64,000 nt of DNA from Halosolutus amylolyticus (GTDB lineage: Archaea; Halobacteriota; Halobacteria; Halobacteriales; Natrialbaceae). A model generated the notes under the pieces. That model had not been told where the DNA came from. It ran no database searches and saw only the letters and a program-made list of their open reading frames with translations. The position numbers and the translations under genes were made by a program. The stretch is taken from NCBI RefSeq assembly GCF_023566055.1, contig NZ_JALIQP010000001.1, positions 828,059 to 892,058 on the forward strand, read 5' to 3'. Shown here in pieces: positions 17,767 through 63,300 of the stretch. The stretch's first letter is position 1; the number at the start of each line of letters is the position of its first letter.

Positions 17767-18180
17767 TCAGCCGTCGATCGGCCGGCCGTCTTCCGTCGGC
17801 GGGGCGATGTGGTCGACGTACTCCTCGACGGTGGGTTCCTCGACGCGGACGCGGACGCTGATCTCGCCGAGTTCGTCGGGTTCGCCGACCGAGAAATTGA
17901 CGCGGTCCTCGAAGGCCGCCTGTTTCTTCAGGGCGAAGGAGAACGTGTCTCCGTCGCGGTTCGCGAAGAACTCGCCGCGGGCGGTGTCGAGGATCTCCTG
18001 GCGGTGGAGCAGGTCCGAAAAGTGGTCCAGCGAGTGCGCTTCGCCCCTGACCTCGCCGAACTCCTCCTCGATCTCGGCGTTCGGGAAGATGTTCGCGACC
18101 GCGTCCACGACGCGACTCGTCACCTCTGTGTCGTAGACGGGGGCCGTGATCTCGACGTCGACCCGGTAGATCTCGCTCAT
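17767..18180 (-). CDS. UPF0201-like RNA-binding-domain protein, partner of the downstream-linked P-loop kinase
   Basis: A 137-residue protein. YRVDVEITAPVYDTEVTSRV and VANIFPNAEIEEEFGEVRGE resemble the archaeal RNA-binding/UPF0201 family, often placed beside the dephospho-CoA-kinase-like gene. Its ATG overlaps the stop of the 5' neighbour (ATGA at 18177-18180), indicating one transcript and coupled translation. The function is unknown; the fold suggests a dimer binding RNA or protein. Confidence 0.75.
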   Translation of the reverse strand: MSEIYRVDVEITAPVYDTEVTSRVVDAVANIFPNAEIEEEFGEVRGEAHSLDHFSDLLHRQEILDTARGEFFANRDGDTFSFALKKQAAFEDRVNFSVGEPDELGEISVRVRVEEPTVEEYVDHIAPPTEDGRPIDG

Positions 18181-18746
18181 CGGTGGCTCACCTCCCGATC
18201 GACCCCTTCGCGAACGATGGCCCGGATGCGATCGTGGAACGCCTCGAGCGTGTCCGTGTTCTCGACGACCACGTCGGCGCGGGCCATCGCGTCGTCCATC
18301 CCGAACCCGCGCTCGCGCTCGTCGCGGGCGGCGAGGGGTTCGCCGCCGTCGTCCTCGCTCGCGTCCCGGCCCCGGGCGTCGATCCGCTCGGCGCGGACCT
18401 CGAAGGGGGCCTCGATGCTGACCAGCGTGAAGTCGTCGCCGAACCGCTCCTCGAAGACGTCGACCTCGGTTCCGGAGCGGATGCCGTCGACCAGCACCGT
18501 CTCGTGATCCTCGAGTCGATCCTCGATCATCGGGAGCGAGCGCTCGGCGATCGCCGCCGGCCCGTTCTCGTCGCGCAGGGCCTGCGCGACCTTCCCGTGG
18601 TCTTTCGCCGGTTCGAGGCCCCGATCGGCCGTCTCCTGGCGGACGACGTCGCCCATCGTCACGACCGGGATACCCGCTTCGCGTGCGACGGTCGCGGCCT
18701 CTCCTTTCCCGCTTCCGGGGAGCCCCACCGTTCCGATGACGTGCAT
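18177..18746 (-). CDS. UPF0200-family AAA/P-loop nucleotide kinase-like protein (dephospho-CoA-kinase-like)
   Basis: A 189-residue protein starting MHVIGTVGLPGSGKGEAA, where GLPGSGKG is the P-loop. Other blocks are VVTMGDVVRQETADRG, TVLVDGIRSGTEVDVF (Walker B-like) and the lid region RDERERGFGMDDAMARAD. The layout is that of dephospho-CoA kinase/adenylate kinase folds, and archaeal UPF0200 members have been proposed as CoA-pathway kinases, but this is not certain. It is first in a two-gene operon with the UPF0201-like gene, by four-base overlap. Confidence 0.82.
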   Translation of the reverse strand: MHVIGTVGLPGSGKGEAATVAREAGIPVVTMGDVVRQETADRGLEPAKDHGKVAQALRDENGPAAIAERSLPMIEDRLEDHETVLVDGIRSGTEVDVFEERFGDDFTLVSIEAPFEVRAERIDARGRDASEDDGGEPLAARDERERGFGMDDAMARADVVVENTDTLEAFHDRIRAIVREGVDREVSHR

Positions 18747-19144
18747 CGGGAGTGGATACAGGCGACGCCTGCATAAGGACTGTGTTCGCCGGTCGGGCGA
18801 GAGCCACCCCCGTTTCCCGTCCGCTAAGCTCGTTTCAGCTGGTGCAACTGCGGTAGGGCCCCTGTACCGACGCCGAGCCCGGTATCGTCGCTCCCGATCC
18901 GGACGAGTTCGCGACACCGATGCGATCGATCCGGCATCGCTCGCCATGCCGGAATCGGATCGGGAGGGTGGTGGATGGATCGCGCTCCCGGGGGGCGTTC
19001 GTTGCTCGAGTGGAAACAGTGGCCGCGTTCGCAACCGTCGAGCGTCGCGATCGGGCGATCGATAATTCGTCTGAATTCGAGACCAGTTTTCGAAACGGAC
19101 TGTCCCCATTATTGGCTACTTCCCGGTCGCTTCGGGTGCACGCT
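18747..19144. other. Intergenic region without a convincing gene
   Basis: 398 bases between the UPF0200 kinase start and the repeat lipoprotein. Reading frames here are Arg-rich and change phase; I see no RNA-gene core. An AT-rich patch near 19050-19115 (AATTCGTCTGAATTCGAGAC, then CCATTATTGG) probably holds the promoter of the lipoprotein gene. Confidence 0.4.
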
Positions 19145-19582
19145 ATGACAGACAGACTCCTCGACAGGCGTCGGTTCACCAAGGTCGCCGGCGCTGGTGT
19201 AGTCGCTGCGATCGCCGGCTGTATGGACGACGAGGACGTGGACGATCCGACGGGCGACGATCCGGAGGATGAGGATCCCATCGGCGACGAAGACGACGCG
19301 GGCGGCGACGATGGGATGGGCGACGATGAGACGGACGACGAGGACGACGGATTCGGAGACGACAACGAAACCGACGACGGGAGCGACGGCGGACTCGGAG
19401 ACGACAACGAAACCGACGACGGGAGCGACGGCGGACTCGGAGACGACAACGAAACCGACGACGGGAGCGACGGCGGACTCGGAGACGACAACGAAACCGA
19501 CGACGGGAGCGACGACGACGGAATCGGCGACGACGAAAACGCGACGGGCGACGAGGACGACGCCGACGATTCCGGCGCGTAA
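19145..19582 (+). CDS. Tat-type lipoprotein with acidic tandem repeats
   Basis: A 145-residue protein. DRRRFTKVAGAGVVAAIAGC is a twin-arginine signal plus lipobox, predicting an exported lipid-anchored protein. The mature part is almost only Asp, Glu, Gly, Asn and Thr, with a 14-residue unit (GGLGDDNETDDGSD) repeated nearly exactly four times, matching the 42-bp DNA repeat. N-E-T and D-N-E-T sequons may be glycosylated. The repeat number is likely variable between strains. It gives no catalytic signature; a surface spacer or cation-binding coat is a guess. Confidence 0.7.
   Translation: MTDRLLDRRRFTKVAGAGVVAAIAGCMDDEDVDDPTGDDPEDEDPIGDEDDAGGDDGMGDDETDDEDDGFGDDNETDDGSDGGLGDDNETDDGSDGGLGDDNETDDGSDGGLGDDNETDDGSDDDGIGDDENATGDEDDADDSGA
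19349..19511 (+). repeat. 42-bp tandem repeat, about four units
   Basis: The unit runs GGAGACGACAACGAAACCG onward for 42 bases, encoding 14 residues. Units after the first are identical at base level, indicating recent slippage or homogenisation inside the lipoprotein gene. Confidence 0.85.
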
Positions 19583-19760: not shown

Positions 19761-19835
19761 GGGCACGTAGCTCAGTCCGGAAAGAGCGTCGGACTTCTAA
19801 TCCGACGGTCGTGGGTTCAAATCCCATCGTGCCCG
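19761..19835 (+). tRNA. tRNA-Arg (anticodon UCU)
   Basis: A 75-base cloverleaf. Acceptor arms GGGCACG and CGTGCCC pair, with discriminator G. The D arm contains TAGCTCAG, the anticodon loop CTTCTAA is between TCGGA and TCCGA giving anticodon TCT, and the T arm is GTGGGTTCAAATCCCAT. No intron, and CCA is not encoded. A perfect hairpin terminator follows at once. A decayed copy of the same tRNA lies at 29518-29667. Confidence 0.95.
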
Positions 19836-19990
19836 TACGAAAACTGTCGATTTCGTACTTCTACCCAGGAATCGGTACTTCGTTCAGCGATCGAATGCAC
19901 CCCCTCTCGGGCTGCCGATTTCTGTTGTCGGAACCGTCGCGAAGCGGTCGACGTGACGGTCCAGCCGCGGCGGTCGATCGAAGTGTGTAG
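19819..19990 (+). repeat. Left copy of a duplicated tRNA-Arg 3' end and flank (att-like)
   Basis: The tRNA 3' end and the next 150 bases recur, diverged, at 29650-29885 in the same orientation. Shared blocks include CCCATCGTG-CCG-CGAA-AC-GTCG-TTTCG, then GATCGAATGCACCCC, then TTGTCGGAACCGTCGC and CGTGACG. The right copy has extra sequence between the first two blocks. The pair brackets the cytochrome c maturation genes. Confidence 0.7.
19835..19858 (+). terminator. Hairpin immediately after tRNA-Arg
   Basis: GTACGAAA (19835-19842) and TTTCGTAC (19851-19858) are a perfect 8-bp inverted repeat around an 8-base loop, starting at the discriminator base. A degraded version follows the tRNA remnant at 29665-29685. 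Confidence 0.6.
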
Positions 19991-20058
19991 GACTCGCCGC
20001 AGGATCGACTCGTCCGGGCGTAATAAAGGGCGATCGCAGTGGTTGCGACCGGCGCGAT

Positions 20059-20202
20059 TCACCTGAGCCGTCGGAAGTCCTCCGACCCACAGGAACAGGC
20101 CGCCGTTCCGATCGGTCGGATGGTCCCGTTCAGGAGTTCTTTCGCTGCGTACACGGACTCGCAGTGGACACACACGGCCACAGCACGACGATGATCGTGC
20201 AT
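20059..20202 (-). CDS. Small zinc-ribbon protein
   Basis: A 47-residue ORF, MHDHRRAVAVCVHCESVYAA at the N-terminus and AACSCGSEDFRRLR at the C-terminus. The CVHC and CSCG pairs, 22 residues apart, make a four-cysteine zinc ribbon of the kind common in very short haloarchaeal proteins. It sits between the tRNA flank and the ccm genes, on the opposite strand. I chose the ATG at 20202; no other start is in frame nearer the first Cys. No function can be given. Confidence 0.6.
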   Translation of the reverse strand: MHDHRRAVAVCVHCESVYAAKELLNGTIRPIGTAACSCGSEDFRRLR

Positions 20203-20348
20203 GACGATCACCCACCCGACGAATGGCCGGACGATACTTCAAATGTTGTGGCGACGACCCTGTTCGTCACCGGGGAGCGACGGTCGTCGATCGTGACACG
20301 TGGATCGGTCGAGCGGTCGGCGGATGCGACGATCGGCTCGTTACCCTC

Positions 20349-20356
20349 GTTATAAA
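20349..20356 (+). promoter_or_regulatory. TATA box of the ccmEAB operon
   Basis: GTTATAAACACAAAAG (centred 20352) lies about 45 bases before the GTG of ccmE and is the strongest TATA-like match in the gap. Transcription would start near 20378. Confidence 0.5.
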
Positions 20357-20395
20357 CACAAAAGATTCAACTATTCTTCTTCTCGATACTGTGTT

Positions 20396-20776
20396 GTGAA
20401 ACGAAGGACCAAACTTCTCTTTGTCGGTGTCGGTATTCTGCTGCTCCTCGGCGTCTTGGGGGTGACGGTGATGAACGCGTCCGCGGAGTTCGTTACTCCA
20501 ACGGCCGTCAACGACGGCGAGTACGAGGGTGAGTGGGTTAATCTAGAAGGCCAGGCGACCGACATCGAACAGACGGGCGAGGAGATCGCGTTCTCCGTCT
20601 CGGACAATAACACGTCAGTTGACGTTGTCTACGAGGGAACCATGCCCGAGACGATGGCCGAAAACCGGATCGTCGTTGCGAAAGGCGCCGTTGAGAATGG
20701 AACACTTCAGGCGACCGAACTCTCGGTCAGGGCCCACGACGACGAAGACGGAGGTCCACCGGAAGAACACACCTAA
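20396..20776 (+). CDS. ccmE: Cytochrome c maturation haem chaperone CcmE
   Basis: A 126-residue protein starting at GTG 20396 (VKRRTKLLF, then a transmembrane helix of about 18 residues GVGILLLLGVLGVTVMN). The C-terminal part is the OB fold typical of CcmE, with YEGEWVNLEGQATDIEQTG, VDVVYEGTMPETMAENRIVV and GTLQATELSVRAHDDED. CcmE carries haem covalently from CcmC to CcmF outside the membrane. Its haem-binding motif is usually H-x-E-x-Y (bacterial) or C-x-x-x-Y (archaeal type). Here the tail is AHDDEDGGPPEEHT: the His is present but no Tyr follows. It is the first gene of ccmEAB, three bases before ccmA. The start is the only one giving a normal-length cytoplasmic N-terminus. Confidence 0.85.
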   Translation: MKRRTKLLFVGVGILLLLGVLGVTVMNASAEFVTPTAVNDGEYEGEWVNLEGQATDIEQTGEEIAFSVSDNNTSVDVVYEGTMPETMAENRIVVAKGAVENGTLQATELSVRAHDDEDGGPPEEHT

Positions 20777-20779
20777 ACC

Positions 20780-21484
20780 ATGGCGTCGATTACCGCTGAG
20801 GGTGTCACGAAGCGACTCGGTTCGACGGTCGCCGTCCGCGATGTCAGTTTCACCGTCGGATCGGGCGAACACGTCGGACTGTTCGGTCCGAACGGCGCCG
20901 GCAAAACGACCCTGATGCAGATGCTGGCCACGCTTTCGTTCCCGAGCGACGGTACCATTCGGATCGGTGAACACGACATAACACCCGATGCAACGCGCGT
21001 CCGACGGGACCTCGGTGTCATGGGCCACCGATCGATGCTGTACGGCACCCTCACCGCTCGTGAAAACCTCCGTCTTCACGCGCGACTCCGAGGCGTCAGT
21101 ACCGACCGCGTCGAGGAGGTCCTCGAGCAAGTCAATCTCCGGACGCAAGCGTCGACGCGCGTGGAAACGTTTTCCCACGGCATGACGAAGCGACTCGCCA
21201 TCGCTCGCGCAGTGTTGCATGATCCAACAGTGCTGTTGCTCGACGAACCCTATGCCGGGCTGGACCAGCGCTCGGCTAGGGATCTTCAACAGATTCTCGA
21301 CCAGTTCGACGACCGAACGGTCGTGCTCGCGACCCACGACCTGGTACGGGGCGCTACCGACTGTGACCGCGCTCTCGTGCTCGTCGACGGCACCATTTCG
21401 CGTGACGTTCGAATCGAGGACTCGACAACGGACGACCTCGAGACCATCTACCGGCGGACAACTGACCCGGCTACGCCACGATGA
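20780..21484 (+). CDS. ccmA: Haem ABC exporter ATP-binding protein CcmA
   Basis: A 234-residue ABC ATPase. Walker A is FGPNGAGKTTLMQML, the Q-loop region is GVMGHRSMLYGTLTARENLR, the signature is FSHGMTKRLAIARAV, Walker B is PTVLLLDEPYAGLD, and the H-loop is VVLATHDLVRG. The signature FSHGM in place of LSGGQ is typical of CcmA and gliding/haem-type exporters. CcmA with CcmB releases haem-CcmE from CcmC. The stop overlaps the ccmB ATG (ATGA). Confidence 0.88.
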   Translation: MASITAEGVTKRLGSTVAVRDVSFTVGSGEHVGLFGPNGAGKTTLMQMLATLSFPSDGTIRIGEHDITPDATRVRRDLGVMGHRSMLYGTLTARENLRLHARLRGVSTDRVEEVLEQVNLRTQASTRVETFSHGMTKRLAIARAVLHDPTVLLLDEPYAGLDQRSARDLQQILDQFDDRTVVLATHDLVRGATDCDRALVLVDGTISRDVRIEDSTTDDLETIYRRTTDPATPR

Positions 21485-22167
21485 TCGACGGCCTTCGCAA
21501 GTACAACCGCGTCGTGCTCGAGGTCGTCCGCAAGGACCTTCTCATCGAGTTGCGCTCGAAGCAGGTGCTCAACACGGCGGTCGTGTTCGCGTTGCTGGTC
21601 GTCGTCATTTTCGCGTTCAGTTTCGCCAGATCGTTCACGGACGTTGGCGTCGTCGGAAGCGGCGCGCTCTGGATCGCGTTCGTCTTCGCGGGGACCTTCG
21701 GCGTCAGCCAGAGTGCAACGGCAGAAACGGCCGACGCGGGACTCGACGGCCTTCTCCTGTTGCCCGTCGACCGATCGGCGATCTACGTCGGAAAAGTGCT
21801 GAGCAACACCGTCTTTACGACGGCCGTTGCGATCATTACGTTCGTCTGTACCGTCATCTTCCTCGAGTTTACAGTCCCGCTCGACGTCGTCCCGATACTG
21901 CTGTTGGTCTTCGTGCTGGCCGCATTCGGGTTCACGTCGACCGGCGTCCTCATTGCGACGATGACCGCCCGGGCTCGACTTCGCGAACTCCTGTTACCTC
22001 TCCTGCTCGTGCCGCTCATCGTCCCAGTGTTGCTCGCCGGTGTCGAACTCACGCGCGTACTTACAGAGGGCTACGTGACGTTGCGGTGGTTTCAGCTCTT
22101 GGTCGTGTACGATGGACTGTTGTTTCTCACCGGATTAGCGACGTTCGAATACGTGGTCGAACGGTAG
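21481..22167 (+). CDS. ccmB: Haem exporter membrane protein CcmB
   Basis: A 228-residue protein with six predicted transmembrane segments. VVLEVVRKDLLIELRSKQVL is the conserved CcmB amphipathic N-terminus, and GTFGVSQSATAETADAGLDG with LLLLPVDRSAIYVGKVL is the family's conserved cytoplasmic loop. It pairs with CcmA. The gene ends directly (no gap) against the convergent gene at 22168. Confidence 0.88.
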   Translation: MIDGLRKYNRVVLEVVRKDLLIELRSKQVLNTAVVFALLVVVIFAFSFARSFTDVGVVGSGALWIAFVFAGTFGVSQSATAETADAGLDGLLLLPVDRSAIYVGKVLSNTVFTTAVAIITFVCTVIFLEFTVPLDVVPILLLVFVLAAFGFTSTGVLIATMTARARLRELLLPLLLVPLIVPVLLAGVELTRVLTEGYVTLRWFQLLVVYDGLLFLTGLATFEYVVER

Positions 22168-23358
22168 CTACAGGCGTCGGTACGCGAGCAGCCCGACGAC
22201 CACGATTCCGACGAAACCAGCGCTCAAGAGACCGACGGGGAGTTCAGCCCCCTGCGAATCGTCTCCACGTTCTTCGCTAGCGGTCACCCCGCGCTCGTCG
22301 ATGCTCACGGCGATCCGTTCGTCCGCTTCGAGAACGTTGGTGTTCATCACCATCGGCATCGGCGCGTCCGCTTCGACGAGATTGTCCGAGAACTCGACCT
22401 GACTCAGGTCGTATTCGACAAACGAGATGGCGAACTGCTCGACGTCGTATCCGACTGGTTTCTCGAGTTCCTGATCCTCGAGTCGGTAGAAGACCGACAC
22501 GTCGGCCGTCTCGCCGGCATCGATCGAGGCGTCGACCGTTGCCGTTCCGTTCTCGACGGTGACCTCAGTACGCTCCTCCTGGACCATTCCCGTGACGACT
22601 TCGGCATCTGACGGCACCGCAAACTCGACTGGACCGGCGAAGGGGTGAGCGGCACTGTTCTCGAGCGAGACGGTCTCGACGACGAACAGTCCCGACTCGT
22701 TCTGGGCGGGTCCGACCCGCAGTAGGTGGTTCACGGGCTGTCCACCGCCGAGGTGTAACACGTCCCGGTCGGCTGTCGGCTCCGGAAGCTCGTACGTGGT
22801 GTCGACGGATCCGTCTCCAGTCGAGAGCGTCCGCTCGTAGACAGCGCCGTTCGCCTCGATACGAATCGGATATGTTCGATCAGGCTGGAGTGGATCGAGG
22901 GTAAACGAGCCGTCGTCGACTGTAAGCTGATCGACCGGCGGACCGTACTCGCTCGTGACGTCGATGGTCGCGTTCGAGACCGGATCGCCGTCCTCGTCGA
23001 CGAGCGTTCCGGTTGCCGTTTCGTTCAGGGTGATCGTCGGCTCCTGGCCGTCGGTAACGAGTTTGTAGTGAGCCGCGCCCGCGTGCTCGAGTTTGATGAA
23101 GTACACTGATACGTTGTCGGCCCGCTCGTAGCTGAACGAGCCGTTCTCGATGGTCGTCTCGGTCGGGTCATCGACTGCGTTGTACCCTGCATCGAGCGGC
23201 GTAATGGTTATGTTGTCCCCCTCTGCGGAGCCGTCTGCAACGGTCACGGTACCGGAATACGTCTCCTCGGCGACAGCGCCGGGTGCCAGCGCGATCGAGA
23301 CGGGTGCGATAAGTGCAAGCGATGCGAGTACTGTGAGATATGTAAGTTTCCGTGACAT
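22168..23358 (-). CDS. Membrane-anchored, cysteine-free beta-rich protein in the ccm cluster, unknown function
   Basis: A 396-residue protein. It has a Sec-type signal (KLTYLTVLASLALIAPVSIA, cleavage likely after AVAEE or nearby). One extracytoplasmic domain, about 35-110, reads like a carboxypeptidase-regulatory or cna-B fold (YSGTVTVADGSAEGDNITIT). A second similar fold is at about 110-190 (GTLVDEDGDPVSNATIDVTS). Beta-rich sequence continues to about 360, and a C-terminal helix (VGLLSAGFVGIVVVGLLAY) ends in RRL. It contains no cysteine, so it cannot be the thioredoxin-like CcmH or CcmG. It is placed directly after ccmF (three-base gap) in a ccmG-ccmF-this operon, which implies a role in haem or apocytochrome handling; that is inference. 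Confidence 0.75.
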   Translation of the reverse strand: MSRKLTYLTVLASLALIAPVSIALAPGAVAEETYSGTVTVADGSAEGDNITITPLDAGYNAVDDPTETTIENGSFSYERADNVSVYFIKLEHAGAAHYKLVTDGQEPTITLNETATGTLVDEDGDPVSNATIDVTSEYGPPVDQLTVDDGSFTLDPLQPDRTYPIRIEANGAVYERTLSTGDGSVDTTYELPEPTADRDVLHLGGGQPVNHLLRVGPAQNESGLFVVETVSLENSAAHPFAGPVEFAVPSDAEVVTGMVQEERTEVTVENGTATVDASIDAGETADVSVFYRLEDQELEKPVGYDVEQFAISFVEYDLSQVEFSDNLVEADAPMPMVMNTNVLEADERIAVSIDERGVTASEERGDDSQGAELPVGLLSAGFVGIVVVGLLAYRRL

Positions 23359-23361
23359 GTA

Positions 23362-25776
23362 TTAATCGTCGGATGGCGTTTCGGTAGTGATTGGCTGTTC
23401 GGTCCGACGTGACCACGTGCGAACGAGCCCGTAGGCCGGGTCGAACAGGATGATAACCAACATTCCTGCGAGCAACACGCCGGTACTACCGCGCATGAGA
23501 TTCATCAGCGGAATCTGTCGGATCGTCAGTGAGGCGGTTCCCTCGTCGACCGCTGCGATGACGTACGTGTCGTGGGTCAATCCACGATCGACGAAGACGT
23601 TCCTGACCTCCATCCCGCCTTGCTGGAGGTAGCGCTCTTGGCCGGCCTCGCCGCTGGCGAGTCGTTCGCCATCGTCGTAAACGGTGAGTCCGACGGCACT
23701 GCCCTGGACGCGCGTCTGATCGAGCGAAGCAGGTGGGTTCGTCACCGTACCGATGTCCGCCGGGTCGGTGACGACGACCGCATCGGTTTGCGATAGCTCC
23801 GGAAGGTACTCCCACATAACGTATCCAACGCCGACTACCTGATCGCCTTCCGAAACATCAACGTCTGCCTGTCCGTCGCCGACGACGCCGAGCCAGATCT
23901 GCGAGTCGTCGAGTTGGACGATAGTCGCTCCCTCCCCCTGATTAACCTCGGTTACCGTTCCGTACACCGGCTGTACCGTCTCGTGAATCGAATCGCCTCG
24001 AGCAGTCACCTCGTCCACTGAGAAGGCGACGTTTCGAATGTCGGGATCGTCCGGACGCTGATACTCACGATAGTCGGTCACTTCGACGGCGTAGCTGGAG
24101 TCGGGGACGTCGTGGACGCCCGAGTCGTCCAGTGCTGCCTCCTGTTCGGAATCGGCAATAATCACCGACGACTGTGCGGTAAACAGATAGGAGAACGCGA
24201 CGGAGATCACGAGAATCACGAATCCGATGTGAACCATCGCGACGCCTACCTGTTTGAATTGATAGTTGCGACTCGGCGAGCCGTGGACGTACTCGAGTGT
24301 GCGATTGATGACCGTGAGACAGACGTACGCCGCTGGCGGGAGCAGCGAGAGGACACTCGCACTGCCGATGAGCTGGTAGAATAGCGCATCGTTCGTGTCA
24401 CTCGTTGCAAGCAGCCACGAATCGGTCGGCGCGACCACCGCAGCCAGAACGGTTGCCGTCGTGAAGACGCCAAGCGAGAGCAATGCGCGGCGGCGACCTT
24501 CCACGTCGTAATCCATGTAGAACCCGAGGAGCAACAGCATCGCGAGCACGATCGGATAGCTCCAGAGATTGTAGTAGTCGCCCGTCACTTCGACTTCCAT
24601 CCCCGTGATGTAGCTGTTGAGGACGGGAAACGAGAGCCCCCAGACGGAGACGAAACCGAGCAGTCCGATACCGAGGACGGCGAGGTGTAACAGATTCGCT
24701 CGAGTGAGCCATGGCTGGGATTCCTCAGCTGGCTCCGCTGGCTCTCTCAGAAGCCAGTAGCCAAACGGGAGACAGACGCCGAGTATCGTCGTCACTGCGA
24801 GCAACACGAGCAGCGCGAACCCAATTCCGCCGTCGGCAAACGAGTGAACGCTTCGGAAGACGCCACTTCTGACGATCGCCGTCGCGTAGATGACGAGAGC
24901 GAACGTCGTCGCCGTCATCGCCGGTGCGAGCGTTCCGTACGTCGATCGCGACCGGTAGTTCATTACGGCATGTAACGTCGCAGTGAGGAAGATCCACGGG
25001 ATCAACACGGCGGTCTCGACGGGATCCCACGCCCAGATCCCACCCCAGCCAAGGACTCGATACGACCACAGCGACCCGAGGACGATTGCGGCGGTGAGAA
25101 AGAACCACGAGATACGGAGCCAGCGCGTGATGCTTCCGATCCAGTCACTGAACAGTCCTCCGTTACCCCGGATCGTCGAGATGAAGTGGGCAACGGCGAT
25201 GGCAAACGGCATCGTCAGAAGGGCGTAGGCGATGAACATCACCGGTGGATGGATCGCCATGTACGGATCGATCAGAAGCGGATTTAGTCCCGTCCCATCG
25301 AGCGGCGCGGCCCCCTCGCCCATCTCGGGGAACTCCTCGGTGATCGCGGTGAAGGGACTATCGAAGAATAGCATGGCCGCGAAGTACGTGACAATCCCGA
25401 CCGTGAGTCCCTGCACGAGTTTCGCATCGGGCGACGCTATTCCCCGGCGGACAGCCGCCCAGAAGGCGACGACGGCAGCCAGTGCAGCCCACAGTAGAAC
25501 GGAGCCTTCGTTACCCGCGTAGACGCCGGTGATGCGGTAGAGGAGTGGAATGTAGTTCGCCGTGTTGTTCCAAACATACGCGTTCGTGTAGTCGGTAACG
25601 ACGAACTGGTACGTGAGATAACCGAGTGCAACTACCAGCAAGCCAGCAGTCACACCGATCAACGGTGTGATGACGGTAACGTAGCCGTTGTCTCGGCGAA
25701 GATAGCCACGAAACAGGAGCACCGACGCCACGAGTCCGGTGAGCGTCGCGCTGGCGATGAGCGCAGGTCCGATCAT
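23362..25776 (-). CDS. ccmF: Cytochrome c haem lyase subunit CcmF
   Basis: A protein of about 804 residues with about 14 transmembrane helices. The signature WGGIWAWDPVETAVLIPWIF is the tryptophan-rich haem-handling WWD-type motif of the CcmF/CcsA superfamily, with conserved histidines in the flanking loops (YMAIHPPVMFIAYAL, TATLHAVMNY). A large extracytoplasmic C-terminal domain follows. CcmF with CcmH attaches haem to CxxCH apocytochromes. The ATG at 25776 overlaps the stop of the upstream thioredoxin gene (ATGA), so I prefer it to the GTG four codons upstream (25788). Confidence 0.95.
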   Translation of the reverse strand: MIGPALIASATLTGLVASVLLFRGYLRRDNGYVTVITPLIGVTAGLLVVALGYLTYQFVVTDYTNAYVWNNTANYIPLLYRITGVYAGNEGSVLLWAALAAVVAFWAAVRRGIASPDAKLVQGLTVGIVTYFAAMLFFDSPFTAITEEFPEMGEGAAPLDGTGLNPLLIDPYMAIHPPVMFIAYALLTMPFAIAVAHFISTIRGNGGLFSDWIGSITRWLRISWFFLTAAIVLGSLWSYRVLGWGGIWAWDPVETAVLIPWIFLTATLHAVMNYRSRSTYGTLAPAMTATTFALVIYATAIVRSGVFRSVHSFADGGIGFALLVLLAVTTILGVCLPFGYWLLREPAEPAEESQPWLTRANLLHLAVLGIGLLGFVSVWGLSFPVLNSYITGMEVEVTGDYYNLWSYPIVLAMLLLLGFYMDYDVEGRRRALLSLGVFTTATVLAAVVAPTDSWLLATSDTNDALFYQLIGSASVLSLLPPAAYVCLTVINRTLEYVHGSPSRNYQFKQVGVAMVHIGFVILVISVAFSYLFTAQSSVIIADSEQEAALDDSGVHDVPDSSYAVEVTDYREYQRPDDPDIRNVAFSVDEVTARGDSIHETVQPVYGTVTEVNQGEGATIVQLDDSQIWLGVVGDGQADVDVSEGDQVVGVGYVMWEYLPELSQTDAVVVTDPADIGTVTNPPASLDQTRVQGSAVGLTVYDDGERLASGEAGQERYLQQGGMEVRNVFVDRGLTHDTYVIAAVDEGTASLTIRQIPLMNLMRGSTGVLLAGMLVIILFDPAYGLVRTWSRRTEQPITTETPSDD

Positions 25777-26312
25777 CGACTTTCCCACTTCGATTGTGCT
25801 TCATCGAGATACGCAATGAACGAATTCGTCTCGGCGTATCCATTAATTTCTACCAACAGTTCTCCGTCGGGCGTGATCGCGACGTGCTGGGGCGGATAGT
25901 TCGCGTTGTATCGTTGCTGGAGATCTTTCGCCTCCGGACTACTATCGTCGAGGTTCACCGCGAGTAGAACGAAGTCGTCGAGCCGGTCGTTGACGTCCGG
26001 ATCGACGTAGGCATTCTTATTGTAGTCTTCACAGTAGGTACACCACGTCGTCCAGAAGTAGACGAGGACCGGTTTGTCTTCCGCGACAGCGGTCTCCATC
26101 GCCGTGTCTACGTCCGTTTTCCATGTAGTATCTCCATGATACGTGTATGATTCATCACTCAGTACGGATGCCGTGTTCATCGAATAGTATCCGATTCCAA
26201 GAGCCGTGATAACAAGTACGATCGTGAGGATTTTTCGTGGTGTCACGGCTTCGGTGGGCTCGATAGTAGCGGTTTGTTTGACACGACCATACGGGGATTC
26301 TAATTCTCCCAT
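25773..26312 (-). CDS. Membrane-anchored thioredoxin-like protein (CcmG/DsbE-like)
   Basis: A 179-residue protein. One N-terminal helix (ILTIVLVITALGIGYYSMNT) anchors a thioredoxin fold facing outside. The active site is YFWTTWCTYCEDYNKNAY (WCxxC) and the cis-Pro is in NANYPPQHVAI. In System I such proteins reduce the CxxCH cysteines of apocytochrome, powered by CcdA. It is the first gene of ccmG-ccmF-unknown and starts divergently from the diheme cytochrome. The WCTYC spacing and D-K-P-V-L-V-Y also resemble DsbD gamma-type domains, so CcmG is the best but not the only name. Confidence 0.82.
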   Translation of the reverse strand: MGELESPYGRVKQTATIEPTEAVTPRKILTIVLVITALGIGYYSMNTASVLSDESYTYHGDTTWKTDVDTAMETAVAEDKPVLVYFWTTWCTYCEDYNKNAYVDPDVNDRLDDFVLLAVNLDDSSPEAKDLQQRYNANYPPQHVAITPDGELLVEINGYAETNSFIAYLDEAQSKWESR

Positions 26313-26417
26313 GAGGGTTCACAGACCATAAATCTTTAATCATTAGTTTCCGTCGTTATGATATATGCCAGTTAGTGCATTATGTAGAATACTTTCAAAA
26401 AGGGAGACCGATCGTTT
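26313..26417. promoter_or_regulatory. AT-rich divergent promoter region
   Basis: This short gap separates the thioredoxin/ccmF operon (minus) from the diheme cytochrome (plus). It is unusually AT-rich. AAGATTTATGG on the minus strand and TTATGATATATGCC or CTTTCAAAAAGGG on the plus strand are candidate TATA boxes. AGGGAGA about 12 bases before the cytochrome ATG may be a ribosome binding site. Confidence 0.5.
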
Positions 26418-27599
26418 ATGAAGCGAAAATCACTCATCCTGTCTGGTGTCATAATACTTATCGTTCTGGCCGGTTGTTCCGCTCCGACAGCACCCGATGA
26501 CAGCGACGACGAAACGAGCGATCCAATAGAAGCGCCAGCCGAATGGCCAGATCGGACCGTGTTGGACGGCGATCTTCGAGAAGGTGAGTCGAAAGATAAC
26601 CTCGAGTACCGGAACGCAACGGCCGGCGAGGAGATCCAGTTCAGCCCCAAAGAGATGAACGAGTCGACGCTTCCTGAGAACGAAAACGAGCGGGAACTCG
26701 TCATCTACGGGCGCGAGATCATGGAAAACACCTCCGAAGAACTCCCAGAGCACGTCGGTAACGAACTGTCGTGTGCGAGCTGTCACGGCGGTAGCGACCT
26801 CGGCATGACGCAGGGAATGGTCGGCCAGGATATCAACATGATTCCGCTCGTCGGGACCCATGCAGACCTGCCCGAGTGGACTAACCGGCGTGACCGGATG
26901 CGCGACAGTCGCCAGCGGCTGATGGGCTGTTTCGACCGGAGTATGAACTCCCAGGACGCCGAGGAGGGCACACCCGAGTACGACAGCAGGGAGATGCAAG
27001 CCATGGAGGCGTACATGCAATGGCTAAGCGAGGGCGTGCCGACGAAGGCTCAGCCGTACTGGTCACACCTGAATAAAGCAGAGGGTGACGAACGCGTTCC
27101 GGTCGAAGAGATCAACCCCGTTCGGGGTGCAGAACTTTACCTCGAGAACTGTGCGTCCTGTCACGGTGACGATGGACAGGGAATCGAGGACACTGCCACA
27201 GCGCTGTGGGGTCCTGACTCGTTCAACGACGGTGCCGGAATGTCGCGCGTCTACACGTCGTCGGCGTTCATCCGCGAGGCCATGCCCTACGGCGCACCGC
27301 ATACGTTGACTGACTGGCGTGACGTCCAGGACATTGCCGGGTTCATGAACGGCCACGATCGCCCCGAGTTCGTGGGCAAGGAAGACGACTTCCCGACGAC
27401 GGGTCCACCGGAGGAGGGAGTCTACTACGAACGGACGCAGGAGGATCTCGGCTACGATATGAACCCGATGCAGAAGAAGCTCGAGTTAGCTGGGATTCCC
27501 ACGGGAACCGAATCGCTCAGCGAGGACGATATCCCGGACGACGTCGATCGGTACGACCAGCCGCTCCGGGAGGAGTCGCTCAACGAGACGGACAACTGA
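26418..27599 (+). CDS. Lipid-anchored diheme cytochrome c, thiosulfate dehydrogenase (TsdA)-like
   Basis: A 393-residue protein. ILIVLAGC (lipobox, Cys20) follows a short signal, so it is lipid-anchored outside. Two haem sites are seen: CASCH at 119-123 and CASCH at 245-249. Between them is RQRLMGCFDRSMN with Cys171, in the position of the cysteine haem ligand of TsdA; the SoxA/TsdA-type segment REMQAMEAYMQWLSEGVP follows. The second haem has Met289 in FIREAMPYGAP as likely ligand. TsdA oxidises two thiosulfates to tetrathionate and passes electrons to a c-type acceptor. Cys/His-ligated haem is the catalytic centre in known enzymes. The substrate is inferred, not proven; a SoxA-like cytochrome is the alternative. 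It is the only CxxCH protein in the window, next to its own maturation genes. Confidence 0.75.
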   Translation: MKRKSLILSGVIILIVLAGCSAPTAPDDSDDETSDPIEAPAEWPDRTVLDGDLREGESKDNLEYRNATAGEEIQFSPKEMNESTLPENENERELVIYGREIMENTSEELPEHVGNELSCASCHGGSDLGMTQGMVGQDINMIPLVGTHADLPEWTNRRDRMRDSRQRLMGCFDRSMNSQDAEEGTPEYDSREMQAMEAYMQWLSEGVPTKAQPYWSHLNKAEGDERVPVEEINPVRGAELYLENCASCHGDDGQGIEDTATALWGPDSFNDGAGMSRVYTSSAFIREAMPYGAPHTLTDWRDVQDIAGFMNGHDRPEFVGKEDDFPTTGPPEEGVYYERTQEDLGYDMNPMQKKLELAGIPTGTESLSEDDIPDDVDRYDQPLREESLNETDN

Positions 27600-27609
27600 A
27601 CGAAGCCGT

Positions 27610-27692
27610 CATACGGTCTGCTGGCACCGTGTCCCGGCGCACCCGCAGGTGGGTCGCAGGTGTGCCGGAACTGGCTGACAGGAATCCGTATC
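27610..27692. repeat. Palindromic repeat element, copy C (diverged)
   Basis: It begins 10 bases after the diheme cytochrome stop. Outer arms are CATACGGTCTGCTGG and CTGACAGGAATCCGTATC. Inner arms are CCGGCGCACC and GGTGTGCCGG (one G-T pair). It aligns end to end with the reverse complement of copy A at 6016-6098 but with more changes, so it is an older copy or belongs to a subtype. Confidence 0.7.
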
Positions 27693-27747
27693 ACTCGTTG
27701 CGGATCCATCACGTTCTTTATGCTCATCTCGAAACGTAGAGTCGACA

Positions 27748-28434
27748 ATGGTCGAGACGCCGGGGTTAGTTGCAGTTTTTGTCGCAGGAGTACTCACTGC
27801 GCTCACACCGTGTTGTCTCCCGATGATCCCCCCGTTGCTCGCGGGAAGCACCGGACACCGGTTTCGGCCGCTCGCGATCGTTGCCGGGAGTATCGTGTCG
27901 TTTACCGTGCTCGGAATTGCCACGGCGCTGGTCGGTTCGCTGACGCCCGATTCGTTTCGGCTGCCGTTCGTGGCGATGATTATCGTCTTCGGTGCGGTGA
28001 TGGCCGATGACGATCTCCACACCGCGTACACGACGTACGCATCGCGAGTTACCGGCCCGGTAACGCGGTTTACGACCGCTATCGAAACGTCTCATCACCC
28101 ACTCGTCGGCGGCTTCGTGCTCGGACTGTTTCTCGGCGTCATCTGGTTGCCGTGTGTGGGGCCCGTACTCGGGAGCGTGCTTGCGTTCGTCGGTGCGTCC
28201 GGAGAGACGACACAGAGTGCAACGCTGCTTTTCACGTACGGAGTCGGCTTCTCCGGACCGCTGTTGGTCGTCGCATACGGCGGCAAACGGGCCGGAAACG
28301 TGCTTACCGACCGCGTACGGTCGCTCGACCAGCCCGCGCTAGCGCGACGGCTGAGCGGGTACGCGCTCGTCGTGACAGGCGTCGGACTGTTGTTCGAACT
28401 CGACAAGGCGTTGCTGGCAGCACTCGTCCAGTGA
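27748..28434 (+). CDS. ccdA: Thiol-disulfide transporter CcdA (DsbD-type membrane part)
   Basis: A 228-residue protein with six hydrophobic helices. The two redox cysteines of CcdA are in TALTPCCLPMIPPLLAG (helix 1) and GVIWLPCVGPVLGSVL (helix 4), each with the P-C-x-x-P/G signature. CcdA carries electrons from cytoplasmic thioredoxin to CcmG-like proteins outside. The extra Cys beside the first (PCC) is unusual. It is one gene from ccmC and opposite in direction to ccmF. Confidence 0.87.
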   Translation: MVETPGLVAVFVAGVLTALTPCCLPMIPPLLAGSTGHRFRPLAIVAGSIVSFTVLGIATALVGSLTPDSFRLPFVAMIIVFGAVMADDDLHTAYTTYASRVTGPVTRFTTAIETSHHPLVGGFVLGLFLGVIWLPCVGPVLGSVLAFVGASGETTQSATLLFTYGVGFSGPLLVVAYGGKRAGNVLTDRVRSLDQPALARRLSGYALVVTGVGLLFELDKALLAALVQ

Positions 28435-28465
28435 TTGTTGAAAAAAATTAAGTCATACTCGTTGA

Positions 28466-29200
28466 ATGCATGCTCGTATGCGTAAACTCTCGAAACGACT
28501 TGGCACACTCATCGCGCTGTTCCACCGAATCATGTGGAGCCGATTTATTCGATGGGGCGCTTTCGTTCTCGGTTTGACGTCGTTAACTCTCATATTCGGA
28601 TTCGCCTCCCGAGCGATGTATGGCATCGATCACGGTATCAACCTCATCGCCTACTGGCACATTCCGCTCGCGTTTCTGACTGCCGGCGCGCTCTCTGCGA
28701 CGTTCGTCGGGAGTGTGCTCTATCTCAAGTACGAGGGCCGATTCTGGAACCGGCTCGCACACAGCGGCGGTGAGATCGGATTTCTGTTCGCAACGCTGAC
28801 GCTCGTTACGGGAAGCCTGTGGGGACGCGTCGTCTGGAACTCGTGGTGGGAGTGGAGTGACGTTCGACTCATCACGTTTCTCATGGTCTGGTTCATCTAC
28901 GCGGGATATCTCGTCGTGTACGCCTCGACCGAACGCGGGGCCGACGAACGATTCGCGGCAGTCTACGGAACGGTCGCGTTCATCACCGTTCCGATCACCT
29001 ACACTGCTGGCCGTCTCTGGACGCCGACCTTTCACGAACCGACCGTGGCGAACCCCGACGTGAGTGCAAACATCGACCCGCTGACGCTCGGCATCTCGTT
29101 GCTCGCACTGGGGCTGCTCTATATCTACCTGATGGCGATTCGTATCCGCCTGCACGAACTCGAGGACAGAGTCGCCTTCAAAAAAGAGGAGGTGGCGTAA
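28466..29200 (+). CDS. ccmC: Haem transport/attachment protein CcmC
   Basis: A 244-residue six-helix protein of the CcsA/CcmC family. The conserved tryptophan motif is WGRVVWNSWWEWSDVRLITF, and helix-flanking histidines are in LIAYWHIPLAFLTAG and PTFHEP, together placing haem for transfer to CcmE. The first ATG (28466) gives MHARMRKLSKRL. The second (28478) is better spaced from the AT-rich AAAAAATTAAG at 28443-28451 for a leaderless transcript, so the protein may begin four residues later. ccmD follows two bases after its stop. Confidence 0.88.
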   Translation: MHARMRKLSKRLGTLIALFHRIMWSRFIRWGAFVLGLTSLTLIFGFASRAMYGIDHGINLIAYWHIPLAFLTAGALSATFVGSVLYLKYEGRFWNRLAHSGGEIGFLFATLTLVTGSLWGRVVWNSWWEWSDVRLITFLMVWFIYAGYLVVYASTERGADERFAAVYGTVAFITVPITYTAGRLWTPTFHEPTVANPDVSANIDPLTLGISLLALGLLYIYLMAIRIRLHELEDRVAFKKEEVA

Positions 29201-29202
29201 CG

Positions 29203-29319
29203 ATGGAACCGTTCCTCCTCGCCAGTTACGGCGCGATATTCGTCGCGCTATTCGCGTACATCCTCTACATGCAGCGCCAATTACAGCGCCTCGAGCGACA
29301 ACTGCAAGATCTCCGGTAG
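29203..29319 (+). CDS. ccmD: CcmD-like small membrane protein
   Basis: A 38-residue ORF, starting two bases after the ccmC stop: an acidic N-terminus, one helix (LLASYGAIFVALFAYILYM), then an Arg/Gln/Leu-rich amphipathic tail ending DLR. This is the layout of CcmD, the small partner that helps CcmC release haem-CcmE. Position and length support the name; the sequence alone is too short to prove it. Confidence 0.78.
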   Translation: MEPFLLASYGAIFVALFAYILYMQRQLQRLERQLQDLR

Positions 29320-29479
29320 CTCTCTGTTACGGCCTAGATGAATAGCGCCCCCGCCGACCGTCGCCGCCCCCACACACGACGGCTGTGCGTCGGGATCGCT
29401 ATCGACAGTGTCTCTTCAGGGCGACCTCGGTTCTGACAGCCTCACTGTGATGGCTTTGTCTGGGCGCGTGGGGTTCCAA

Positions 29480-29501
29480 GGTTCCGTTGTCGGTCGGAAC
29501 C
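29480..29501 (+). terminator. Hairpin after ccmC-ccmD
   Basis: GGTTCCG (29480-29486) and CGGAACC (29495-29501) form a perfect 7-bp inverted repeat around TTGTCGGT. It lies about 160 bases after ccmD and just before the tRNA remnant. Confidence 0.35.
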
Positions 29502-29517
29502 GTCAGCCAGTGTCGCA

Positions 29518-29667
29518 GGGCCTGTAGCTCGGGTTGCTATGAGGGATTGGACTTCGAATGGGCGGGAAGTCGTAGGTGAATCGACTCTTGGATCGGCGAA
29601 TTAAGCTGGGGGGTTCTGAAACCCTGTTTCAGGTCCCCAGATGCCGCCCAAACCCCATCGTGTCCGC
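29518..29667 (+). pseudogene. Decayed tRNA-Arg copy, interrupted in the T arm
   Basis: GGGCCTGTAGCTCGGG and GATTGGACTTCGAATG align with the acceptor, D arm and anticodon arm of the intact tRNA-Arg(UCU) at 19761, and AAGTCGTAGGTGAATC with its T arm. The match then breaks; about 65 bases containing a hairpin follow. The 3' end resumes at 29649-29667 as CCAAACCCCATCGTGTCCG. Acceptor and anticodon pairing are lost, so it cannot make a tRNA. Confidence 0.7.
29606..29640 (+). repeat. Hairpin inside the tRNA remnant
   Basis: CTGGGG/CCCCAG (29606-29611, 29635-29640) and CTGAAA/TTTCAG (29616-29621, 29627-29632) are two perfect 6-bp stems, coaxial, with a 5-base loop. It lies exactly where the tRNA alignment breaks, so it may be the footprint of an insertion. 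Confidence 0.6.
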
Positions 29668-29885
29668 GCGAACACCGTCGCTTTCGGGACCCTATCCAGA
29701 AGCCTGATTCAGTACCGCTACCGGAGATGGTAGGCTAATTCTCGAGTGACGCGTCGCCCTGGAATCTCGACCTCGGTCACCGATTGAACGCACCCCTTCG
29801 CGGCCGGCGAGTTCCATTGTCGGAATCGTCGCACAGGGATCGGCGTGACGATCGAGTCGGGGCCGCCGGTCAATCGACGTGCCGG
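29650..29885 (+). repeat. Right copy of the tRNA 3' end and flank (att-like)
   Basis: A diverged duplicate of 19819-19990, carrying about 65 extra bases near 29713-29777. The later block GATTGAACGCACCCC... TTGTCGGAATCGTCGC ...CGTGACG matches the left flank. Same orientation as the left copy. Confidence 0.68.
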
Positions 29886-30168
29886 CACTGTGGAGCCCAC
29901 GTCACCGATCGATTCCGCCGCGTCCTCGACGACGATCGCAATCGGACCCGGAGACGTCGCCCGGCCGTCACGGAGGTGAGGCGAATGCGTGACGATCCGT
30001 TCGTCCCGGCGAGTCGGCCGTACGACGCCGAGAGTCTGCCGCCTCTGGCTCAACCGCCCCATCGAGCGATCGATGAGCAAGTCCGGCACGCGATCGTGAG
30101 TTAGGAACGAGTGATCCGGACCGACAGCGGACGCTTTTCGGGCGGTACGGGGCGATGGAGCAGCGGAT
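29886..30168. other. Intergenic region with a possible decayed zinc-ribbon reading frame
   Basis: The plus strand contains CRHCGAHVTDRFRRVLDDD (from about 29878), which resembles the start of haloarchaeal one-ribbon DUF7563-type proteins. The second cysteine pair is absent, so it is probably a broken gene. No other feature is seen. Confidence 0.35.
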
Positions 30169-60385: not shown

Positions 60386-63300
60386 TCACGTCGTCCGGAG
60401 GTTGTCCGTGCTCGGCTCGTAGACCTCGCCTTTCTGTTTGAGCTTCTCGATCTCGTGTTCGGCCTTGGACTGGTCCATGCCGATTTCCTCGGCGCGCTCC
60501 ATGACGATGTCGACCGGCGCACCCTCGTCGTACTCCTCCTCGATGTCGCTGATGAGTCCCTTGAGGTTCTTGATCCGATCGCGCTGGGACTTCGAGGTGC
60601 CGGCCTCGACGATGTCCGCGTCGAACTCGCCCGTCTCGGGGTCGACGCCGATGTCCTGCAGACACGAGCGGACGATCTCGATGACCCGCTCGGCGTCGTG
60701 TTGCTCGACCGTATCGGAGAGGCGCACCCGCGCGCTGGCCTCCGAGAGCCGCACCAGGGCCTCGAGTTTTCGCGCCGTGACCGGAACCGGGGCGTCCTCG
60801 TCGGTCCCCTTCGACCGGAGGTCGACGTAGAAGTCCCGGATCGCCTCCTGGGCTTCCTCGGTCATCCGCGGGTGGCAGTTCTGCTTCGCGAAGGCGATGT
60901 ACTTGCGCAGGAGTTCGGCGTCGATCTCGGGGTCGACCTGGTCGGTCATCTCGTCGATCTCCTCGGTGCTAACCTCGAGCGAGGCCATCTGCTCGCGCTG
61001 GGTCGTCAACTCGCCCGCGTAGTTCGTCGTGATGATGTGCTCGGCGAGGTTGCGGTCTTTCTCCTCGTCGGGCTGGTCGGTGACGGTGAAGATCAGGTCG
61101 AACCGCGAGATCAGGGCGGGTTCGAGGTCGATCTGCTCGCCGATCGGCTCGTACTGATCGAAGCGGCCGTACTTGGGGTTCGCGGCGCCGAGTAGCGAAC
61201 AGCGGGACTTGAGGGTCGCGTTGATGCCCGCCTTGGAGACGGAAATCTTCTGCTGTTCGAGGGCCTCGTGCATGGCCGATCGGTCCTCAGAGTTGTGGAC
61301 GACCATGCCGTTCGCGATGAAGTTGTGGGTTCCTTCTACCGTGAGGTCGTAGACGTAGTCCCAATTCTCGCTCCCGATCCGCCGAATCTCGACGATTTCC
61401 TTTGGTTCGACGTCTCGGAGGCTCGAGTTCGTCGATTGATCGACGGTTGCGACACCACCATCCGCGGCGATCGGAGGACGTTCACGGGGTGCGAGGGTCT
61501 GATCACCGACCTCGAGTTTCGCTGCACTCCGTTCGACGATCGATTCGTTCTGATAGACGAAGAACGGATGATCCGGCGTCGAACGGAGTTGCGATCCGTC
61601 TTCAGTGGTGACTTCGATCAGTTCCGTCGGAGTTTCGTACTGATGGACAGCCGTCACCGGCCGTTCGACGATCGCTCCGGAGTCGGTCATGGTCCGGACG
61701 GAGAGATCGACGTCTCGGATCGTTCGGCCGTTCTCGAGCGGTTCGATTTCACCGCTCTCCGCCGCTCGTTTGGCGATGTCACCAATCGAAACAGACGAGC
61801 TGTCAGCCAAGTCGACAGCTGTGTCACTAGTCACACATCGCATTTTGTCAAGTTCGTCGACTGCGGCGATACCTTGATCAGCGAGAACGAGTGCACCAGC
61901 CTCAAGGGTCCACTGCTGGCCGTCGCCGAAGTCGTCGCGAACCGCGGCTGCGGTAAGGCCTGCCGAGGACGAACCCTTCCCGGAGGTGTAGACGGAGCGC
62001 GGCGCGATGTTCTGGATGTAGCCCAGCATCTGGGAGTTGTGCGAGATGACCCCGTTTGAGACGTAATTGTGCGTTCCCTCGATCTCGAGGTCGTAGACCC
62101 AATCATAGTCGGGTTCGACTCTGTCGATAGATTCGATTCGTTCCCAATAGACGTCACCCTCTACGAACTGCTCGAGAGCAGCGACGCTTGCTCCTACGGA
62201 TCCACCGTCAGCGACGACACTGTCCTCGCTCTGACCAGCTTTCGCTGGAACTTCGTCTTTGAACGCTGAGACGACCTTTCGAAGACTCTGTCGGCTCGGG
62301 TTTCTCGACCCGCGCTCATAGTTTTGATACGTCGATCGGGGGAGTCCGCAGTCGGCCTGCGTTAGTGACAGTGATTCCCGAATTTGTCGAAGTTCCGAAC
62401 CCAGGCTTGGGACAATATTGAGATTCGTATTCCCATTTGTGTCTGTGTACTGTGATGCTGTCTCCTGTTTTCGCTCGGTCACAAATCCAATTCGAGAGAC
62501 GTATTTCGCAAATTCGTCTCCGCTTATTCTGAGTCGATAGCTGCCATTACGTCGATCGTGCATCTGTGCGCGTATTCCGACCGACAGGAGTAACGTTCGG
62601 ACATTATCGAGTAACTCTCGGCTCATCGACGCAACGGAAATCTCTCGCTGAGACTCCGAAACGTGGCCTTCCCCTTCAATAAAGGCTTGGAGAAATTCAG
62701 ACTTCGTTGCCTCAGAGGCCTTGAATATCGAATCTGGGACACATTGTTTGTCGGACGACTCGAGAATACACGGTTCGAGTGCCTTGAGGAAGCTTACGAA
62801 CTCTCCTGCCGAACACAGAAGCTCACGGGCGTCCTTCGATTCGTGCGGTCCTCGCTCCGTCGTGTTGAGGCCTAACTTCTCGAGTGCCTTCGCTGCGTCG
62901 TCCAATACTTCCCGATCGTTGTTCGTAATCGAGACGAATCCTGTATTGTCGTCTCGCTGTTCGACGTACCCTTCTGCGATGACGTATCCGATCAGTCGGG
63001 CTAACGAGGGTGTCCATTCGGCCGGCAGATCGAGTTGAACCGCGTTTCGCGACCGAGATCGTCGGAAATCGATATCGATCGAGTCATCCCCTTTCGTGGA
63101 AAGGGTTCGCGGCGCAGCAATGAACTGTCCTTTAGTAAGCTCTTCGGCGACTATCGGATTGAACTGGCCGTCACGCTGTACAAACAGCGGATGGGACGGC
63201 GTCACCTCGAGTTCACGTCCGCTCGAGGTCCGAATCCGATACATCTGCTCGGGTGCTTCGCGTTTCCATACTTTCGTTGCCCGCTGTGAGGCGATCGAGC

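Follow-up and report, generated by a model that had tools for sequence, protein, structure and literature searches.

Thiosulfate-dehydrogenase (TDH) homologues encoded in operon-like arrangements with ccm genes have been reported in five haloarchaea by Kletzin et al. 2015 (PMC4429474), who propose an origin by transfer from bacteria and report that Haloferax volcanii has no CCM. In TsdA, the haem ligands include a distal Cys at haem 1 and a distal Met at haem 2 (PMC6879331). For archaeal System I cytochrome c maturation, Gupta et al. 2022 (PMC9084895) state that CcmE is universally of the CXXXY type and that CcmD is uniformly absent.

The stretch of DNA analysed here (64,000 nucleotides; the window) comes from Halosolutus amylolyticus and contains, behind tRNA-Arg(UCU), a 9.1-kb cassette with a coding span of 20396-29319. 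Its genes are ccmE-A-B, X396, ccmF, a thioredoxin gene, the gene of a TsdA homologue (a diheme lipoprotein), ccdA, ccmC and a ccmD-like gene. A TsdA-like diheme gene adjoins ccm genes, as in the haloarchaeal TDH (cluster 28) of Kletzin et al.; the pairing, for which a preliminary description of this DNA knew no earlier account, is the one reported from five haloarchaea in 2015. The tRNA site, the empty site, X396, the CcmE motif, ccmD and the CcmF-cytochrome pairing go beyond the account of cluster 28 in the accessible text of that paper. The literature searched gave no account of X396, the CcmE His motif, CcmF dedication or transfer at the tRNA site, an earlier notice of the motif being possible. 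The locus shares with CcmABCEF of Methanosarcina acetivorans (PMC9084895) a System I that lacks CcmH, and differs from it in a His-type rather than CxxxY CcmE, a CcmD-like gene and a ccmF that adjoins its cytochrome gene. The explanation preferred here, which combines horizontal transfer, a TsdA enzyme, a His-type CcmE with a dedicated CcmF, and entry near a tRNA, is regarded as a whole with good confidence.

Layout and insertion site of the cassette

Pfam, NCBIfam, ARAGORN and Rfam bear out the preliminary description of a ccm set with a diheme cytochrome behind tRNA-Arg(UCU) (Table 1). The place of the block (19761-29667) was correctly given, but the part shared with the putative donor lineage is narrower, 20343-29443. 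A gene listed as unknown is present and can now be located as X396 (22168-23358). The System I components CcmA, B, C, E and F are all encoded, CcmA being an ABC ATPase that scores barely over the NCBIfam ccmA cut-off. The block had also been described as AT-richer than its neighbours and unlike them in codon use, and our check agrees. The GC content is 0.592 in the cassette versus 0.674-0.676 in the flanks, the mean GC3 is 0.72 versus 0.86 (sd 0.06) for flank ORFs (n=36), and the codon distances of the cassette genes are 0.31-0.47, with a flank mean of 0.23. A second AT-richer stretch forms the right-hand margin of the window (61001-64000), where GC drops to 0.53-0.60.

Table 1 Features of the cassette and its tRNA site (window positions unless a locus is given).
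Feature	Position	Strand	Evidence and remarks
tRNA-Arg(UCU), intact, intronless; left edge of insertion site	19761..19835	+	ARAGORN, Rfam
Left copy of native tRNA 3' flank	19836..19985	.	Without ~62 nt present in congeners and in right copy
Transferred cassette	20343..29443	.	blastn limits; ~92% nucleotide identity to Natronorubrum genomes
ccmE, haem chaperone; haem-site His (VRAH), no Cys, no Tyr at +4	20396..20776	+	Pfam PF03100; PDB CcmE 8ce8/1sr3; alignments
ccmA, haem-export ABC ATPase	20780..21484	+	NCBIfam TIGR01189, 132.6 bits (cut-off 131.6)
ccmB, permease	21481..22167	+	Pfam PF03379
X396, predicted secreted protein	22168..23358	-	Domain searches
ccmF, cytochrome c haem lyase, WWD motif	23362..25788	-	Pfam, NCBIfam
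Membrane-anchored thioredoxin (WCTYC), CcmG-like	25773..26312	-	Pfam, NCBIfam
Lipobox diheme cytochrome c, TsdA homologue	26418..27599	+	CASCH at 119-123 and 245-249; predicted distal ligands Cys171, Met289
ccdA, thiol-reductant membrane transporter	27748..28434	+	Pfam DsbD_TM
ccmC, haem handling, WWD motif	28466..29200	+	Pfam, NCBIfam
ccmD-like small membrane protein, 38 aa	29203..29319	+	Pfam CcmD match under cut-off; conserved position behind ccmC
Decayed second tRNA-Arg	29518..29668	+	3' end secure, 5' half weak
Right copy of native tRNA 3' flank	29649..30130	.	Contiguous with tRNA in congeners (empty site)
Second tRNA-Arg 3'-end copies	L049:2955-2984, L050:3859-3889, L052:3210-3241, L053:4056-4114		

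The empty site that the preliminary description proposed to look for was found in both congeners compared (G015 and G016), in which the tRNA is joined directly to the sequence of 29649-30130 with no cassette DNA between them. Neither congener carries a TsdA homologue, CcmF or CcmC. In the window, the flank duplicate (19864-19985 versus 29756-29881) shows ~74-77% identity, far over shuffles. The decayed tRNA-Arg with a diverged flank duplicate that had been proposed on the right is secure for the tRNA 3' end and the flank (29649-30130), but the 5' half of the relic (about 29518-29590) is not significant alone, since its score is reached by 126 of 1000 shuffles. The segments 19986-20342 and 29444-29520 have no convincing match among the loci compared, and at 29.3-31.1 kb no coding ORF of appreciable size could be assigned to a family. 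The tRNA-Arg(UCU) gene of both congeners has an intron of ~29 nt, which is also present in G009 (L045:3167-3389, L047:3798-4023, L053:3829-3977); the other genera compared are intronless. Left of the tRNA, positions 18920-19582 hold a lipoprotein-like frame in which an acidic motif recurs as 42-nt tandem repeats; relatives match this frame in shifted registers.

Origin, distribution and route of entry

The cassette (20343-29443) is 92.5% identical to that of Natronorubrum aibiense and 91.7% to that of N. thiooxidans, and the cassette tree places H. amylolyticus as the sister of N. aibiense within Natronorubrum (support 0.999). The flank marker, one region of about 1 kb (17767-18795), is 82-83% identical to the same Natronorubrum genomes and 94% identical to G016, and its tree groups H. 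amylolyticus with the congeners G016 and G015 (support 1.0). The conflict between the cassette and flank trees, together with the empty site in congeners that do not carry the genes, shows, at the level of sequence comparison, that the cassette was acquired horizontally after the split from the two congeners compared. A Natronorubrum-like donor is indicated, because the cassette nests in Natronorubrum while the marker groups with the congeners. Under vertical inheritance, the ancestor of the family would already have had the cassette, and most genomes, those of the two congeners among them, would have lost it. The same gene set is indeed common to distant haloarchaeal families, and its neighbours are constant within each of the genera g14, g15 and g23, so that in these genera the cassette is vertically inherited. 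For H. amylolyticus, however, such a history is very improbable in view of the nesting of the cassette in Natronorubrum at 92.5% identity versus 82-83% for the flank, the empty site with its tRNA-flank duplicate, and a GC contrast of 8 points here versus 2-5 points in other Natrialbaceae-type loci.

TsdA is encoded in 25 of the 392 genomes of the order (29 matched at E<=0.001, and four weak, partial matches were set aside), and CcmE in 39, which include all 25 TsdA genomes. The two genes lie within 10 kb of each other in 23 of the 25; they are 164 kb apart in G171 and on different contigs in G134. The cassette of G171, which belongs to another family, falls among Natrialbaceae-type cassettes in the CcmF tree, which suggests a second transfer, into G171. 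The genes of TsdA and X396 are plasmid-borne in Halobacterium noricense and Halorussus halophilus. No relative was found among viral contigs. In Natrinema limicola (L006:281-16131) the cassette lies among genes of haem biosynthesis (hemC, hemB and a class-III aminotransferase gene, perhaps hemL) and a gene for an ammonium transporter, and the other g15 loci have the same flanks. No sulfur gene was seen among the scanned cassette neighbours at three other loci.

The DNA downstream of the tRNA is variable across the family. Other DNA occupies about 25 kb in G016 and 13 kb in G015, and in each congener this DNA carries a tyrosine integrase gene close to the end away from the tRNA (L046:7262-8314, L047:14949-15635; one shortened). 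Directly behind the tRNA of four genomes, short repeats of the tRNA-Arg 3' end resemble att-site scars. The block in H. amylolyticus may accordingly be what is left of an integrated element whose integrase was lost, with the site as the att site of a tyrosine integrase, a reading in keeping with the integrases behind the same tRNA in both congeners and with the tRNA 3'-end copies in the four other genomes. This is a serious possibility, yet one that we do not favour. No recombinase occurs among the cassette proteins (Pfam) or at the cassette edges, so that no integrase is left; the duplicate extends well past the tRNA end into the native flank; and the inserts of the congeners do not separate tRNA and flank but follow the flank on its right. 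A tRNA integrase would not normally duplicate more than 120 nt of flank, and entry by such an enzyme is questionable because the duplication seen here is longer than it would leave. In the preferred explanation, a block related to the N. aibiense and N. thiooxidans cassette entered directly behind tRNA-Arg(UCU) and now stands between two copies of the tRNA 3' flank, as the sequence shows. It may have come in by homologous recombination between tRNA flanks and perhaps from a plasmid, with tyrosine-integrase elements presumably using the same neighbourhood in the congeners.

As for the features of a tRNA-targeting element, insertion behind a tRNA and an empty site were found and an encoded integrase was not. 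The view that the block is mobile, or once was, and supplies a single CxxCH enzyme together with the machinery for its maturation agrees with the empty site, the tree conflict and the one recognisable c-type cytochrome described below, but its self-mobile part is unsupported, as no integrase is left and the cassette occupies other sites in other genomes.

The TsdA homologue as predicted enzyme and only recognisable c-type cytochrome

The diheme protein matches Pfam PF21342 (SoxA/TsdA) and Cytochrom_C and contains two CxxCH haem sites. Its residues 92-324 match the PDB thiosulfate dehydrogenase entries 4v2k/4wq7 with an E value of about 1e-37. In an alignment of 11 homologues, both CxxCH motifs with their proximal His, Cys171, Met289, R157 and R167 are invariant, and Cys171 and Met289 align in sequence with Cys96 and Met209 of AvTsdA. 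R157 and R167 would correspond to the two catalytic arginines if the numbering of PMC6879331 includes the signal peptide. The protein thus resembles Allochromatium vinosum TsdA (4wq7, 4v2k) in its two CxxCH sites, the Cys of haem 1, the Met of haem 2 and the catalytic arginines; it differs in having Ala at the position of Lys208, a lipobox, and conserved N- and C-terminal extensions. We infer a predicted TsdA-type thiosulfate dehydrogenase anchored as a lipoprotein. On the outer face of the membrane, this protein would join two thiosulfates to tetrathionate at the His/Cys-ligated haem, and the electrons would pass through the His/Met haem to the respiratory chain.

It is an unlikely but reasonable alternative that the protein belongs to the TsdA family yet chiefly does something else, for instance reduces tetrathionate, or that it just carries electrons, since characterized TsdAs are bidirectional and can also act as tetrathionate reductases, the haem 2 Met with no adjacent Lys resembles the Campylobacter enzyme (PMC6879331), and the conserved extensions fall outside the crystal-structure match (residues 92-324). 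Every predicted catalytic residue is kept, however, and a close homologue comes from a haloarchaeon associated with tetrathionate formation from thiosulfate. This organism, N. thiooxidans HArc, has the same cassette, and a citation in PMC8530250 connects its name with the paper of Sorokin et al. 2005, 'Oxidation of thiosulfate to tetrathionate by an haloarchaeon'. The thiosulfate dehydrogenase reading offers a specific candidate gene for this phenotype reported in 2005, and with a specific gene named, the question of haloarchaeal thiosulfate oxidation is directly testable.

The check for other c-type cytochromes revealed no credible second one. No other protein of the H. amylolyticus genome matches PF00034. 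The genome has 101 CxxCH-coding DNA matches, and among the 100 examined (68 regions and the window) the TsdA homologue is the only one with a strongly hydrophobic N-terminal segment. The other matches were rejected as cytochromes, as they look like zinc sites, MoaA, thioredoxin-like proteins, nucleases and chance frames. By this screen, which unusual haem sites would escape, the TsdA homologue is the only recognisable c-type cytochrome of the genome, and the cassette holds the only CcmF/CcmC set. One recognisable c-type cytochrome with a self-contained maturation set would provide a simple natural test bed for a CcmH-less System I.

Maturation proteins, X396 and the pairing of CcmF with its cytochrome

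In 41 aligned CcmE rows from 33 distinct haloarchaeal genomes, the His of the VRAH motif is invariant (with IRAH or VVRAH-type variants before the His), and neither a Cys at the haem site nor a Tyr at +4 is present. The archaeal CxxxY type is ruled out for these proteins, as all 41 rows are devoid of the Cys and the +4 Tyr. The His match relies on the short conserved motif, because the PDB CcmE alignment is one residue out of register at this His. The 38-residue ORF behind ccmC gives a Pfam CcmD match with E 6e-4 and 20.2 bits, under the cut-off of 25.6, and a ccmD-like gene follows ccmC in 19 of 20 further regions, the exception being the TsdA locus of G171. CcmH (PF03918) was not found in H. 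amylolyticus and 14 other genomes, with a positive E. coli control. The His-type CcmE and the ccmD-like gene appear to conflict with the universality statement of 2022 (PMC9084895), an apparently new observation which indicates that the published archaeal rule of a CxxxY CcmE and no CcmD does not hold for haloarchaea. In the proposed pathway, CcmABC(D) would load haem on the His-type CcmE, and CcdA and the thioredoxin would keep cysteines reduced with CcmH absent.

Besides a transthyretin/carboxypeptidase-regulatory-like domain, X396 has other beta domains and, at its C-terminus, a hydrophobic helix; it is predicted to be secreted. The genomes with strong matches are the same 25 that have TsdA, whereas the 14 Ccm-only genomes have none, and the copy numbers of X396 and TsdA are equal in the two genomes that have two of each; further matches elsewhere are weak and partial (E 1e-9 to 1e-3). 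A role as a general Ccm component that replaces CcmH/I for all cytochromes is rejected because the 14 Ccm-positive genomes that lack TsdA have no strong match. Fold searches with a structure model of modest quality (pLDDT 69) returned only common beta-sandwich matches, the best of them transthyretin-like (residues 113-195, Z 11); many other rows resemble that of the hydrazine dehydrogenase subunit 6hif_Y (Z 9.6). The co-occurrence with TsdA, which is apparently new, points to a TsdA-specific partner, possibly an assembly factor or docking protein. It is a tentative and somewhat doubtful extension that haloarchaeal System I is a distinct version, in which CcmE would bind haem through a His with no Tyr, CcmD would function in release, CcmFs would be dedicated to their cytochromes, X396 would replace the apocytochrome handling of CcmH/I for TsdA, and the unit would pass from genus to genus as a ready-made set of cytochrome and maturation machinery.

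The CcmF tree separates into two groups by partner cytochrome (support 0.985). A PF01578 search of 30 genomes gave three matches in G171 (two CcmF, one CcmC), which has a single CcmE, four in each of G205 and G255, with two cassettes each, and two in each of the remaining genomes. CcmF appears to segregate with its cytochrome, a pattern that is apparently new, and the dedicated CcmF would attach haem to the two CASCH motifs of TsdA. Ccm-only loci mostly have another diheme CxxCH gene adjoining thioredoxin-ccmF, whose product, by its CxxCH spacing, is probably the MauG type of Kletzin et al. (PMC4429474). These probably-MauG loci share with the TsdA cassette homologues of ccmE, A, B, C and F, of the ccmD-like gene and of the thioredoxin gene, as well as the same CcmE His motif; they differ in having neither TsdA nor X396 and in a CcmF that belongs to the separate clade.
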